A stretch of DNA of 36,489 bases from the NCBI GenBank assembly GCA_009784515.1, contig WRBN01000007.1, positions 1 through 36,489 of the forward strand, in the 5' to 3' direction. Under the pieces are notes generated by a model that did no database searches, was not told where the DNA came from, and worked only from the letters and a program-made list of their open reading frames with translations. A program made the position numbers and the translations under genes. The stretch is from Spirochaetaceae bacterium. GTDB lineage: Bacteria > Spirochaetota > Spirochaetia > WRBN01. Position 1 is the first letter of the stretch. Each line of letters opens with the position of its first letter. This document shows, in pieces, positions 703 to 36,028 of the stretch.

Positions 703-1245
703 TTACTCTCTTATAATAATATTATTTACCCCATTATCAATAATATTGATAGTACTATCATTGATATAAATTATATTATCATTTCCCTTAAAAACAATAT
801 TATTGCTGTGTAATGCGTTAGAAATATTCATAGTTATCATAGTATTATTACCGCTAAAAATAATATTATTACTATGCAACATACCGATAACATCCATAGT
901 TATTGTATTATTATGGCCCATAAAGGTAATATGGTTATTATGATTAATATCCATATTATTAAAAATAAATACATTATTATAACCGACACTAATGTCAATA
1001 ATATTACTATGTATAGCCTTAAAGGTAATTACTTCAAAACTCGTATTAACATAAGCCATATTAAGAGTAACGTCGTTGGTATGACCAATACTTAAGACAG
1101 AACTACTATAATGCTGATTAAGATTGACAGTAACATCTTGATTGTATCCAATATTTACCGTAACAATATCATCAGGGTTTTCCTTCATACAGCTAGAAAA
1201 TAGCCACAAAACTGTTACAGATAAAACAATTATTTTTTTGTTCAT
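703..1245 (-). CDS. Repeat-built lipoprotein, predicted beta-solenoid
   Basis: The 180-residue product begins with a lipoprotein signal peptide: basic start, hydrophobic core and lipobox F-S-S-C with the acylated Cys at 19. The mature part is made of short repeats centred on Gly-x-Asn-Asn-x-Ile-Thr-Met. The Gly residues fall at 33, 54, 88, 110, 132 and 154, the last four exactly 22 residues apart, each repeat opening with His-Ser/Asn-Asn. Alternating hydrophobic and Asn/Thr residues with this period suggest a right-handed beta-helix, like DUF3060-type surface proteins; that family link is inference. It is very rich in Asn, Ile and His and AT-rich, unlike its neighbours. AGAGGAA lies about 7 bases before the ATG. 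It follows uvrA on the same strand by 62 bases. Function is unknown. Confidence 0.8.
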   Translation of the reverse strand: MNKKIIVLSVTVLWLFSSCMKENPDDIVTVNIGYNQDVTVNLNQHYSSSVLSIGHTNDVTLNMAYVNTSFEVITFKAIHSNIIDISVGYNNVFIFNNMDINHNNHITFMGHNNTITMDVIGMLHSNNIIFSGNNTMITMNISNALHSNNIVFKGNDNIIYINDSTINIIDNGVNNIIIRE

Positions 1246-1307: not shown

Positions 1308-4145
1308 CTATAACAGCGGCTTTAAATATTGTCCTGTATAACTTTCGGCACAGGCTGCCACCTCTTCGGGTGTGCCGGTAACCACCACATTACCGCCCTT
1401 ATCGCCGCCTTCGGGGCCTAAATCTATTAAATAGTCGGCGCACTTAATTACCTCTAGATTATGCTCAATCAAAATAACGGTGTTGCCTTTATCTACTAAA
1501 CTTTGTAAGCTGGTAAGTAATTTTTTTACATCCAAAAAATGTAAGCCGGTGGTAGGTTCATCAATAATATAACAAGTTTTACCGGTACTGCGTTTGCTTA
1601 GCTCCAGCGCCAACTTTACGCGCTGTGCCTCGCCACCACTTAAAGTTAAGGCCGATTGACCAAGCGTGATGTAACCCAGCCCAACTTCAACTAAAGTATC
1701 TAACTTCTTTTTAGCCTGAGGAATGGCCTCAAAAAAGCTGCTGGCCTCTTCAATAGTCATAGTTAAAATGTCGTAAATATTTTTACCTTTGTAGCGTACC
1801 TCAAGGGTCTCTTGGTTAAAACGTTTACCGCCGCAAACGTCGCAAGTTACAAAAACATCGGGCAAAAAGTGCATCTCAATTTTTTTAACACCACTGCCCT
1901 CGCAGCTCTCACAGCGTCCGCCGCCACGTTTGCTGCTCACATTAAAGCTAAAACGGCCTTTTTTGTAACCACGCGCCTTGCTCTCGTTAAGGTCGGCAAA
2001 GAGGTCGCGGATTGGGTCCCACAGCTTCACATAAGTTGCCGGGTTACTGCGCGGCGTGCGGCCAATCGGCGCTTGGTCAATGCTGATCAGGCTATCAAAA
2101 TTTTCCTTAATACCCTCAATGTTACCCACTTCACCCACCGAATGATGGCTGCCATGCAAAAAATTGTTCATAGTAGGAAAGAGAATATCGTTAAGTAAGG
2201 TGCTTTTCCCGCTGCCCGATACCCCCGTAATAATGGTAAAAGCGCCTATAGGAAAGCTCACACTAATATCCTTTAAGTTATTTTGGCGCGCTCCATTTAT
2301 CTTAATAAAATTACCGTTACCGCTGCGCCGTTCTTTAGGCAGCTCTATTACCTCTCTGCCGCTTAAATAACGACCGGTGGGGCTGTTCTCAATTAAGGCT
2401 ACCTCCGCTGGAGTACCGGCAGCCACTACCGTACCGCCATGCACACCGGCGCCGGGTCCAATATCGATAAGATAGTCGCTATCTTTGATAATTTGTTCAT
2501 CGTGTTCTACCACAATGAGGGTGTTACCTAAGTCGCGCAAATGTTTTAAAGTGGTTAATAACCTATCGTTATCACGTTGATGCAGGCCGATAGTGGGCTC
2601 ATCTAAGATGTAAAGCACACCCATTAAACTGCTGCCAATTTGTGTAGCTAACCTAATGCGCTGGGCTTCGCCGCCGCTTAAAGTGGCCGATTTACGGTTT
2701 AACGACAGATAATCTAGCCCCACCGCCTGCATAAAGTTTAACCTATCAAAAACCTCTTTAAAGATTTGCCGGCCAATCTTTTGCTCATTCTCGCTTAGTT
2801 GTAACCCTTTAAAGAAATCTATCTCATCGCGTACCGCAAGGCCGGTAACTTGGTTAATATTTTTACCGCCCACACGTACCGCCAAAGCCTCGTGGCGCAG
2901 GCGTTCGCCCTTACATTCTGGGCAGAGCTGTTCCTTCATAAACTCTTCGTAATATTTTTGCACACCTTCGCTATCACTTTCTTTGTAACGCCGCCACATC
3001 TCACTAATAACACCTTCCCAACTATCATTTTTTTCGTAGGTGTTGTTGGTGCTTTGCGTTACATATTTAAAATGAATTTTTTCTTTACCGCTGCCGTACA
3101 GCATAATATGCACAATTTTGGGGTCAATTTCATTGATGGGGTCATCTAAACTAAAGTTATAGTGTTTAGCAAGACTTTCAAACCGGCTGTTATACCATGC
3201 CGATTGCCCGCTAAAGATAGCAAAAGCCCCCTCGTTATAACTTAAAGTTCTATCGGGAATAATTAAATTTTCGTCAAATTCTAACGTGTTGCCCAGCCCG
3301 CTGCAAGTAGGACAGCTACCAAAGGGGTTGTTAAAACTAAACAATCGTGGCTCGAGGGCCGGCATAGCAAAGCCACAGGTAGGGCAGCTGCCATTTTCGC
3401 TAAAAAATAAATCTTTACGTTTGCTGTCATCGGCAAAGGCCACCAACATATCGCCTTGCCCCACACTTAAGGCTACTTCAACGGCTTCGGCTAAACGCTT
3501 ACGAATATCGGCGCCCATTACCAGCCTATCTATCACCACATCTATGCTATGTTTTTTTTGTTTCTCTAAGTTAAACTCTTCTTCTAAGCTATAAAGAGCG
3601 CCATTTACCCGCACCCTTGTAAAGCCCATCGTACGGGCATCATCAAAAACTTTTTGATGTTCACCCTTGCGCCCCTTTACTACCGGAGCTAATATCATTA
3701 GCTTTTCTCCATCTTCTAGGGTCATCACACTGGCAATAATTTGGTCTAAGCTTTGTTTATCAATGGGAGTATCATCTTTGGGGCAAAAAGCTTTGCCAAT
3801 GCGGGCATAAAGCAGCCGTAAATAGTCGTAAATTTCGGTAATGGTGCCAACGGTACTGCGCGGGTTGCGGCCGGTGGTTTTTTGCTCAATACTAATGGCC
3901 GGCGACAGACCTTCAATATAATCGACATCGGGCTTATCTAAACGCCCTAAAAATTGGCGTGCATAAGCCGATAGGCTTTCCACATAACGCCGTTGCCCTT
4001 CGGCAAATAACGTATCAAAGACAAGGCTGCTTTTGCCGCTGCCGGAAACCCCCGAAACCACCACTAATTTATCACGAGGGATAGATAAATCGATATTTTT
4101 TAAGTTGTGCTCACGGGCACCTTTTACCACAATTTTATTATTCAT
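1308..4145 (-). CDS. uvrA: Excinuclease ABC subunit A
   Basis: UvrA, the damage-recognition ATPase of nucleotide excision repair, acts as a dimer with UvrB in the cytoplasm. The 945-residue length is normal. It carries both ABC modules: Walker A GVSGSGKSS at 32-40 and a second near 640, and two signature motifs LSGGEAQR followed by DEPT Walker B segments. Zinc-binding CxxC pairs are present in the first half (CPTC, twice, around the FSFNNPFGS stretch) and in the C-terminal half (CESC, CDVC). The start at 4145 gives the usual beginning NNKIVVKGAREHNLK. There is only a GAG 4-6 bases upstream, and a promoter -10 lies 8 bases before ATG, so the mRNA is probably leaderless. No uvrB or uvrC is in the window. 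Confidence 0.98.
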   Translation of the reverse strand: MNNKIVVKGAREHNLKNIDLSIPRDKLVVVSGVSGSGKSSLVFDTLFAEGQRRYVESLSAYARQFLGRLDKPDVDYIEGLSPAISIEQKTTGRNPRSTVGTITEIYDYLRLLYARIGKAFCPKDDTPIDKQSLDQIIASVMTLEDGEKLMILAPVVKGRKGEHQKVFDDARTMGFTRVRVNGALYSLEEEFNLEKQKKHSIDVVIDRLVMGADIRKRLAEAVEVALSVGQGDMLVAFADDSKRKDLFFSENGSCPTCGFAMPALEPRLFSFNNPFGSCPTCSGLGNTLEFDENLIIPDRTLSYNEGAFAIFSGQSAWYNSRFESLAKHYNFSLDDPINEIDPKIVHIMLYGSGKEKIHFKYVTQSTNNTYEKNDSWEGVISEMWRRYKESDSEGVQKYYEEFMKEQLCPECKGERLRHEALAVRVGGKNINQVTGLAVRDEIDFFKGLQLSENEQKIGRQIFKEVFDRLNFMQAVGLDYLSLNRKSATLSGGEAQRIRLATQIGSSLMGVLYILDEPTIGLHQRDNDRLLTTLKHLRDLGNTLIVVEHDEQIIKDSDYLIDIGPGAGVHGGTVVAAGTPAEVALIENSPTGRYLSGREVIELPKERRSGNGNFIKINGARQNNLKDISVSFPIGAFTIITGVSGSGKSTLLNDILFPTMNNFLHGSHHSVGEVGNIEGIKENFDSLISIDQAPIGRTPRSNPATYVKLWDPIRDLFADLNESKARGYKKGRFSFNVSSKRGGGRCESCEGSGVKKIEMHFLPDVFVTCDVCGGKRFNQETLEVRYKGKNIYDILTMTIEEASSFFEAIPQAKKKLDTLVEVGLGYITLGQSALTLSGGEAQRVKLALELSKRSTGKTCYIIDEPTTGLHFLDVKKLLTSLQSLVDKGNTVILIEHNLEVIKCADYLIDLGPEGGDKGGNVVVTGTPEEVAACAESYTGQYLKPLL

Positions 4146-26174: not shown

Positions 26175-26378
26175 ATGACAAAACATACAGGAAAGGTATT
26201 AGGCAAAAACCAAATTTGTGTTTTAAAAATTGATGGGATTGACGAGTATATTACTGTCCCTGTGGCGCTTTACCGGCAAATTAAAAAAAATGCTGTAGTA
26301 GAGATTGAATACGAAGTTATAGAAGAAACTATTACTAAATTAAAAATTGTTAATATAAATAAATTAGCAGACAATTAA
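26175..26378 (+). CDS. Small protein of unknown function
   Basis: A 67-residue, mostly beta-strand protein (KNQICVLKIDGIDEYITVPV, then KKNAVVEIEYEVIEETITKLKIV) with alternating hydrophobic residues and no cysteine, signal or membrane segment. The pattern of short strands with an acidic/basic balance resembles a small beta-barrel such as an OB or SH3-like fold, but I do not recognise a family; it lacks the IF-1 signature. AGAAGGAAG lies before the ATG, and two back-to-back near-consensus promoters suggest high expression. It converges with the histone-fold gene and shares its terminator. Confidence 0.75.
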   Translation: MTKHTGKVLGKNQICVLKIDGIDEYITVPVALYRQIKKNAVVEIEYEVIEETITKLKIVNINKLADN

Positions 26379-26431: not shown

Positions 26432-26459
26432 AAAAAGCTCCATTAAAATGGAGCTTTTT
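26432..26459. terminator. Bidirectional terminator
   Basis: Stem AAAAAGCTCCAT with ATGGAGCTTTTT, four-base loop TAAA; A and T tracts on both sides serve the converging genes at 26175 (plus) and 26464 (minus). Confidence 0.92.
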
Positions 26460-26463
26460 AACA

Positions 26464-26658
26464 TTACATTACATCTTTTTCTTGTACGGTTTTACGCTTA
26501 TCGCTTTTAGCATTGTTAATGGCATCATCGCATAATTCGCGCACTTTGTCCGATAAGGCATCAATAACTTTAGCCGAGCATTTCATATCCCCTACAGTTT
26601 TGATATAGTTTTTAACCTTACTTGTAATAACTAAAACTTCTTTGTTTTCTTCCGACAT
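26464..26658 (-). CDS. Bacterial histone-fold protein
   Basis: This 64-residue protein matches a single histone fold in outline: helix 1 (SKVKNYIKTVG), a loop, a long central helix (AKVIDALSDKVRELCDDAINNAK), then the loop KRKTV and a short third helix (QEKDVM). The Arg-Lys-Thr followed five residues later by Asp is the hallmark of archaeal histones, where Arg and Asp clamp the loop and Lys/Thr contact DNA. Short histones of this kind are known in Bdellovibrio and Leptospira, where they are abundant DNA-binding proteins. The chain has an acidic N-terminus and a very short third helix, also as in the bacterial forms. AAAAGGAGA precedes the ATG. It is monocistronic with a strong terminator. It lacks the beta-arm of HU/IHF proteins. 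Confidence 0.75.
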   Translation of the reverse strand: MSEENKEVLVITSKVKNYIKTVGDMKCSAKVIDALSDKVRELCDDAINNAKSDKRKTVQEKDVM

Positions 26659-26681
26659 AATTGTCTCCTTTTCTTTAGCTA

Positions 26682-34379: not shown

Positions 34380-34394
34380 CTATGAAAAATGGTG

Positions 34395-34423
34395 TTGACT
34401 AGCCGGCGAACTATGTTTACAAT
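34395..34423 (+). promoter_or_regulatory. Promoter of the ATPase/TOPRIM cassette
   Basis: TTGACT (34395-34400), 17-base spacer, TACAAT (34418-34423). Transcription should begin near 34430, which rules out the in-frame start at 34389 and fixes the start at 34443 behind AAGGAG. Confidence 0.75.
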
Positions 34424-34442
34424 ATTACTCAAGGAGCCTACT

Positions 34443-35519
34443 ATGCACTTAAAAAGCTTACACATACAAAACTACCGTGGCATTAAAGAGTTAAAGTTGG
34501 AAAATTTGGGGCAGATAAATATTTTTACAGGAAATAATAATAGCGGTAAGAGTACGGTGCTGGAGGCGGGGTATCAGGTTACACAGATTAGTAATCCGGA
34601 TGCTATGATAAGTATATCTGAACTGAGAATGGACACTATTCGTGATAACAATGATTGGTTAAATTTTTTTTATGAGAATGATCCAGTTAACGAACCAATC
34701 TTTGAAGCTGAATTTAATAACAACGAAGAACGAAGATTGACTATAAGTGCTAACCTAAAAGATTTAATAGTTAATAGTCCGATCGATGGGTTTCCTTTAT
34801 TGAAAAATAAAATATTTACTAAACAGGTTGAAGCCCTTGCTAGAGGCTTAGTTATTACAATAGAAGTTAATAGGAATAAATATGAATATAAACTTAGTTT
34901 AGTGAGTGTTAGTGGTTCGCTAAGATTAATTATTGAGAAATCAGAGGGATTAACAGGAGATAATTACAAAGAAAAAATAAAAACTGCCTTTATTAAGAAC
35001 CCATTCTACATGAATACACTACCCACCTTATTGATTATGCAAGAAGACGAGCGAGAAAATTTAATTAATGAAGATTTACGAAAACTATATCCATTAATTT
35101 CTCGTTATATAGTAGACACGCAACGAAATGCCGTAAAACTTAAATTAAATAATAACAAGACTATTCCATTAAGTGCAATGGGTGATGGTATTCGTAACCT
35201 CATTAACATCTCCACCCACTTGCGCAATAAAAACCACATCATCTTTATTGATGAAATAGAAAATGGCTTTCATTACAGCTTTTACCCTACCTTATGGCAA
35301 AGCCTAATTAGCATAGCTAAGGAGGCCGGTGTGCAGCTCTTTATAGCTACCCATTCTTATGAGTGTTTAAAAGCATTAAGCCAAAACCTTGATGGCGAAG
35401 TAGATACAAAACTCTTTAAACTAAGGCACAAAGATGAAACCCATAAAGTGTCTGTACTAGATAATAAGGGGATAAGAACGGTTATTGATGACGAAATTGA
35501 AAGAATTGAGGTACTTTAA
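34443..35519 (+). CDS. OLD-like/AAA15 ATPase of a two-gene cassette
   Basis: ABC/SMC-like ATPase of 358 residues: MHLKSLHIQNYRGIKELKL is the typical first strand of RecF/OLD ATPases, then Walker A TGNNNSGKSTVL (29-40), the signature-like SAMGDGIRNLINI, Walker B IIFIDEIENGFH, and the H-loop ATHSYECLKAL. The coiled-coil insertion is short. The C-terminus ends two residues into the next gene's start (TAATG overlap). The gene is AT-richer than its neighbours and poor in the GCC/GGC codons common around it, which suggests transfer. With its partner it resembles OLD-family defence ATPases such as those of PARIS and retron systems, but is shorter; function in phage defence is inference. Confidence 0.85.
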   Translation: MHLKSLHIQNYRGIKELKLENLGQINIFTGNNNSGKSTVLEAGYQVTQISNPDAMISISELRMDTIRDNNDWLNFFYENDPVNEPIFEAEFNNNEERRLTISANLKDLIVNSPIDGFPLLKNKIFTKQVEALARGLVITIEVNRNKYEYKLSLVSVSGSLRLIIEKSEGLTGDNYKEKIKTAFIKNPFYMNTLPTLLIMQEDERENLINEDLRKLYPLISRYIVDTQRNAVKLKLNNNKTIPLSAMGDGIRNLINISTHLRNKNHIIFIDEIENGFHYSFYPTLWQSLISIAKEAGVQLFIATHSYECLKALSQNLDGEVDTKLFKLRHKDETHKVSVLDNKGIRTVIDDEIERIEVL

Positions 35520-36028
35520 TGGAAAATTTTATTCTTTGTGAAGGAATAAGTGATAAAGAGTTTTTAAAACAGCTTATTAAAAAAATAGGTTACCCAGATA
35601 AAGCCATTTTTGTTAAAAATATGAAAGGAAAACCTAAAATAACCCATGCAGAGCAAACTGTTGTTGATAACTACACCGAAGATAATGTTTTAATTATAGT
35701 AGACGCTGACAATGATAATGTAATAGCTTTACGAGAAACTATCAAAGCCAAATGGAACATAACCGATGACCGCATTTTTATTATGCCCAATAACCAAAAT
35801 GAAGGCTGTTTAGAAACCTTAATGTTAAATTTTTACAAAAAAGCCAATTTTTTACAACCACTTATTATTTACCTAAAAGAAAAAAATTGTGATGATAAAG
35901 CCATAGTTGCCGCTTGCCGTTTTTGCTACAAAGAGCTGCCCGGTATACAATTTAACAACTTTGGAGACCCACTTTTTGATAGCCTTAAAGCCACCATTCA
36001 GCAAAATTTTCCCTTGCTTAATCCCTAG
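35519..36028 (+). CDS. TOPRIM-like DUF3226-type protein, partner of the ATPase
   Basis: A 169-residue protein with the TOPRIM layout: FILCEGISDKEFL (Glu8, Asp12) followed by VLIIVDADND (Asp62-x-Asp64), the acidic residues that bind Mg in TOPRIM nucleases and primases, and IMPNNQNEGCLETLML, typical of DUF3226. It starts one base inside the ATPase stop codon, so the two are coupled. Such a split ATPase/TOPRIM pair is a known form of OLD-type toxin or defence module; the TOPRIM half is the presumed nuclease. Same AT-rich composition as the ATPase. The fusA promoter begins inside its last codons. Confidence 0.8.
   Translation: MENFILCEGISDKEFLKQLIKKIGYPDKAIFVKNMKGKPKITHAEQTVVDNYTEDNVLIIVDADNDNVIALRETIKAKWNITDDRIFIMPNNQNEGCLETLMLNFYKKANFLQPLIIYLKEKNCDDKAIVAACRFCYKELPGIQFNNFGDPLFDSLKATIQQNFPLLNP

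Follow-up and report, generated by a model that had tools for sequence, protein, structure and literature searches.

A 64-residue protein of a Spirochaetaceae bacterium is a histone, probably of the bacterial dimer class

A small open reading frame (ORF) in a 36,489-nucleotide stretch of DNA from a Spirochaetaceae bacterium (contig WRBN01000007.1; the whole stretch is referred to below as the window) encodes a 7.2-kDa protein of 64 residues that is a histone. We consider it very likely that this protein is a single-domain member of the 'bacterial dimer' subclass of alpha3 histones, and so of the same kind as HBb (Bd0055) of Bdellovibrio bacteriovorus. This reading is based on homology, on the predicted monomer fold, on conservation of the clamp, DNA-contact and dimer-core residues and on the absence of the residues that mark tetramers, as well as on purifying selection and the single-gene transcription unit. 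Proteins of this kind, the class itself and its presence in Spirochaetia have all been published already. Schwab et al. (2024, PMC11390915) list bacterial dimer histones for class Spirochaetia as well as for five other phyla, so that the view taken in a preliminary description of this DNA, that bacterial histones are limited to a few groups (Bdellovibrio, Leptospira), was too narrow. A modest point that is slightly new is the presence in most Spirochaetia members of Lys-Cys where HBb has Asn-Thr.

Results

The 64-residue product is a histone

When the protein (MSEENKEVLVITSKVKNYIKTVGDMKCSAKVIDALSDKVRELCDDAINNAKSDKRKTVQEKDVM) was searched singly against the PDB with phmmer, it matched HBb/Bd0055 (2.1e-12), HLp of Leptospira perolatii (4.4e-9) and HTkC of Thermococcus (1.5e-5). 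A profile built from 35 family sequences retrieved HBb at 2.6e-23, followed by archaeal HmvA and an Asgard histone, and Foldseek placed HBb (TM 0.76, 49% identity), HLp and HTkC, in that order, as the closest PDB structures. HBb was thus the top match in phmmer, profile and fold searches alike, ahead of the face-to-face histones. The Pfam family CBFD_NFYB_HMF (PF00808) gave a divided answer: the protein alone scored 20.5 bits against a cut-off of 21.4, whereas the genome search, in which frame neighbours were included, gave 21.9, above the cut-off. The NCBIfam archaeal histone superfamily matched at 6e-6, below its own cut-off. The AlphaFold2 monomer (mean pLDDT 87) has helices at residues 3-23 and 30-52 and a one-turn helix at 60-63, in agreement with the three-helix outline first proposed from the sequence; the preliminary description would have given way to a lack of histone matches or a different helix pattern, and we found both the matches and, for the monomer, the predicted order of helix, long helix and short helix.

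No match to the HU/IHF profile (PF00216) appeared in a Pfam search reaching E 10, which bears out the earlier remark that HU/IHF features are missing. By analogy, HU/IHF and the histone probably have a similar role, as small, abundant and non-specific DNA benders, but they are unrelated in sequence and fold. A pseudodimeric DUF1931 histone (PF09123) was considered and rejected, the protein being a single fold of 64 aa that scores 13.6 against a cut-off of 21.8. A PHROGs search gave no match, and plasmid records yielded only more distant halophilic archaeal histones of at most 45% identity. Next to phage-like genes, the IMG/VR viral contigs L100 (at 3001-3189) and L101, of about 44 kb, carry a gene for a 62-aa histone of this type, with about 40% identity and an RKTVMDKD motif; these likely belong to the published category of phage histones.

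The histone gene is a single transcription unit

The features of the locus are collected in Table 1. The gene is monocistronic, as described previously, with an M23 peptidase gene divergent on one side and a 67-aa ORF (26175-26378, plus strand) convergent on the other. The ribosome site reported earlier was confirmed a few bases before the ATG, and an AGGAG-type site also lies upstream of most related histone genes. The hairpin beyond the stop codon folds on both strands (z -3.1 on the minus and z -6.0 on the plus strand, relative to shuffled sequence), and since a T run flanks it on either side it could terminate both convergent genes, in keeping with the bidirectional terminator of the preliminary description. 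A simple consensus terminator scan did not list this hairpin. A hairpin with a T run after the stop is also present in many histone relatives.

Table 1. Features of the histone locus in the window
Feature	Position	Strand	Basis
Histone gene, 64 aa, assigned as very likely to the bacterial dimer class of alpha3 histones	26464..26658	-	ORF (ATG at 26658, TAA at 26464; 195 bases), sequence, profile, fold, alignment
Ribosome binding site AAAGGAGAC	26663..26672	-	Sequence inspection; few bases 5' of the ATG
Intrinsic terminator, bidirectional: 12-bp stem, 4-nt loop, T run on both strands	26432..26459	both	RNA folding
Codons of loop 2 and alpha3: D53, R55-K56-T57 DNA-contact loop, K61, D62	26467..26502	-	Alignment

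We looked for a conserved operon partner and found that the window's neighbour genes do not recur consistently beside the histone relatives. The histone gene is under strong purifying selection (mean pN 0.029 and pS 0.478 over 56 close pairs). Taken with the kept ribosome site, the terminator that is often present and the lack of recurring neighbours, this is what would be expected of a constrained gene with its own expression rather than of a stray ORF.

Other features of the window were noted in passing. The convergent 67-aa ORF, which has the terminator in common with the histone gene, has a weak partial match, below cut-off, to a spermine/spermidine synthase domain. At 34389-36028 (plus strand) an AAA_15/AAA_21 ATPase (376 aa) adjoins a DUF3226 protein (169 aa); PADLOC matched this pair to AbiLi/PDC-M38A and weakly to PDC-M38B/AbiLii, and it is a probable two-gene anti-phage defence pair. 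Finally, a 180-aa ORF at 703-1245 (minus strand) has no Pfam match and is predicted to be lipoprotein-like, with a Cys near its N-terminus and repeats such as HSNNIVF together with Asn-rich units.

The protein closely resembles the DNA-bending histone HBb

HBb/Bd0055 (PDB 8CMP, 8FVX, 9EZZ, 9F0E) is a bacterial dimer alpha3 histone, and the two proteins have in common their length, the three-helix fold, an S-K motif at the start of alpha1 and a Cys in alpha2. They also share the outline of a shortened alpha2 and a minimal alpha3 of 3-4 residues, which is matched by the predicted helices. The Arg-Asp clamp and DNA-contact loop first recognised by eye were recovered in the alignment: the RKT loop at 55-57 and Asp62, in R55-K56-T57-V-Q-E-K-D62, have the same spacing as in RKTVMARD of HBb, and the clamp R55-D62 with its helper D53 corresponds to HBb R51-D58 with helper D49. 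R55, K56, T57 and D62 are invariant in all 59 distinct relatives, as are the alpha1 lysines K14, K16 and K20 (HBb K10, K12 and K16). The dimer-core residues V11, L31, I35, L38 and I59 of HBb are represented by V15, L35, V39, L42 and V63, residues that are compatible, as far as sequence can tell, with a handshake dimer. Only about half of all residues are identical to HBb, however, and the protein differs in having K26-C27 for N22-T23 in loop 1, K61 for R57, an acidic N-terminal tail and a lower net charge.

The reported DNA contacts of HBb are T8, S9, K10, K12, K16, N22, S24, K52, T53 and R57 (PMC11317129), and the equivalents here are T12, S13, K14, K16, K20, K26, S28, K56, T57 and K61, so that eight of the ten positions are identical, with one Arg to Lys and one Asn to Lys exchange. 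These correspondences suggest how the protein may work. Two copies would pair through antiparallel alpha2 helices, and the dimer would contact the DNA backbone, with no sequence preference, at successive minor grooves, using the alpha1 N-termini (T12, S13, K14, K16, K20) and the paired loops (K26, S28, K56, T57, K61). Most likely, by analogy with HBb, the dimer would bend DNA and contribute to nucleoid compaction alongside HU.

The preliminary description had pointed to an edge-on mode of DNA binding. Such a mode was indeed reported for Bd0055 (PMC10627809), but it has since been reinterpreted as bending of DNA by the dimer (PMC11317129). A histone of this kind that forms edge-on filaments along straight DNA, without bending it, would draw on membership of the same subclass and on loop residues identical to those of Bd0055 (PMC10627809); we nevertheless think it unlikely, given that the later HBb crystals, tethered-particle experiments and simulations favour bending (PMC11317129).

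The residues that mark face-to-face tetramers are absent

Bacterial alpha3 histones have been divided into face-to-face tetramers, which carry R48 and N52 as their hallmark, and bacterial dimers, in which neither residue is found (Schwab et al. 2024, PMC11390915). The equivalent positions here are N49 and D53, in keeping with the bacterial dimer class, with which the protein agrees in each feature examined. Across the 59 distinct relatives, position 49 is Arg in three and position 53 is Asn in none. This bears directly on the idea that the protein forms a stable tetramer in the manner of HLp (PDB 9QT0), a bacterial face-to-face histone that wraps about 60 bp of DNA as a tetramer (PMC12701072). 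HLp, which belongs to the same phylum, ranks second among the relatives, shares the histone fold, S-K motif and clamp, and is the best-known spirochaete histone; moreover, histones of the face-to-face type are common in Spirochaetota (PMC11390915). However, HLp has the Arg/Asn tetramer residues that the window histone is missing, and it is outscored by HBb in every search, making a wrapping tetramer a very unlikely solution. HTkC of Thermococcus kodakarensis (PDB 9F2C), an archaeal face-to-face histone of the tetramer type, likewise shares the fold, an S-K-V-K start and the RKT loop, and differs in having Arg at the loop-1 position that is Lys here.

Codon usage is consistent with high expression, and net charge is low

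Codon adaptation was scored with 18 ribosomal-operon ORFs as reference and 90 ORFs from the sampled contigs and the window as background. The histone gene had an index of 0.781, compared with a background maximum of 0.729 (n=90), 0.699 for HU and 0.662 for S20, and it exceeded 99% of chunks of 63 codons and 98% of sequences in which the same protein was recoded at random. The codon usage of the histone gene, over its 63 codons, is consistent, if weakly and indirectly, with high expression, and the histone is probably abundant. For comparison, Bd0055 is 12th in abundance among 2,125 proteins, and in Leptospira the histone comes second among 2,433 (PMC10627809).

The protein has a net charge of about +0.5 and a pI of 7.7, as against about +2.5 and 9.25 for residues 1-59 of HBb. 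With so low a charge its affinity for DNA may be weaker or salt-dependent, and this is the main caution on DNA bending of the HBb type. Histone folds also occur outside chromatin, as in TAFs and MHF, and near-neutral charge would suit a regulator or a protein-protein adaptor. Against such a non-chromatin use, all ten HBb contact positions carry suitable residues, most of them invariant over the 59 relatives, and there is no conserved operon partner; we regard it as highly improbable.

The histone gene occurs alongside HU in some Spirochaetia lineages

A search of genome contigs found 44 related loci, mostly from Spirochaetia, with others in Myxococcota, Bdellovibrionota and Planctomycetota. 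Per-family counts were tallied from the histone and HU tables over 395 sampled genomes of the window's class, identified as Spirochaetia from the named relatives and from the tree described below: the histone gene is present in 64 of these and HU in 382. These 44 loci and 64 genomes exclude a stray or chance ORF. Of the 26 genomes that represent family f26 in the sample, 25 carry the gene, and every sampled member has it in f1 (to which the window belongs; n=2), f9 (4), f13 (2) and f39 (4). No sampled genome from f8, f19 or f24, all of them large families, has it. The sister genus of the window's genome also has it.

HU accompanies the histone in 63 of the 64 histone-bearing class genomes, the exception being 81% complete. 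The window's genome encodes one histone and one HU (G000:C16); neither a protein search nor PF00808 detected a second histone in it. The earlier term 'lone' therefore holds in the sense of a single histone, but not as regards HU, which is also encoded, and replacement of HU by the histone is ruled out. In three genomes of one f26 genus (G162, G216 and G228) the histone and HU genes share a contig and are separated by about 5.6 kb, possibly a matter of within-genus synteny and nothing else.

A tree on 52 alignment columns resolved few forks and grouped the window histone, with weak support, with Spirochaetia sequences. With so patchy a distribution (64 of the 395 genomes sampled from the class), recent capture of the gene or contamination of the assembly might be suspected, but this can be dismissed as next to impossible in view of the gene's position inside a 36-kb contig amid ordinary chromosomal genes, its presence in the sister genus, its grouping, albeit weakly supported, with Spirochaetia sequences, and a codon usage that fits the host's ribosomal genes.

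Loop 1 carries a Lys-Cys variant in most Spirochaetia members

Among the 59 distinct sequences, position 26 is Lys in 40 and position 27 is Cys in 43, the Lys usually being followed by the Cys. HBb has no equivalent of Cys27, and Myxococcota members have Lys-Thr at 26-27. In the alignment K26 falls opposite N22 of HBb and the Arg of HTkC, a position that we take to be that of the sprocket arginine, Arg19, of HMfB. Bacterial histones are reported not to conserve the sprocket arginine (Hocher et al., PMC10627809). Since K26 stands at this minor-groove site of archaeal and eukaryotic histones, it could restore a sprocket contact; since C27 is typical of Spirochaetia and would lie at the DNA face, binding might be sensitive to redox state. 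That the Spirochaetia members form a Lys-Cys subgroup of the bacterial dimer histones with these properties is a tentative and rather doubtful proposal.

Discussion

Bacterial histones have been studied in few species only, and the Spirochaetia now offer small, strongly selected histones that occur alongside HU. How the work is divided between histone and HU could be studied by setting sister lineages that have the histone against those that lack it, and the loop-1 Lys-Cys variant offers one concrete site at which the debate between DNA bending and edge-on binding may be addressed.
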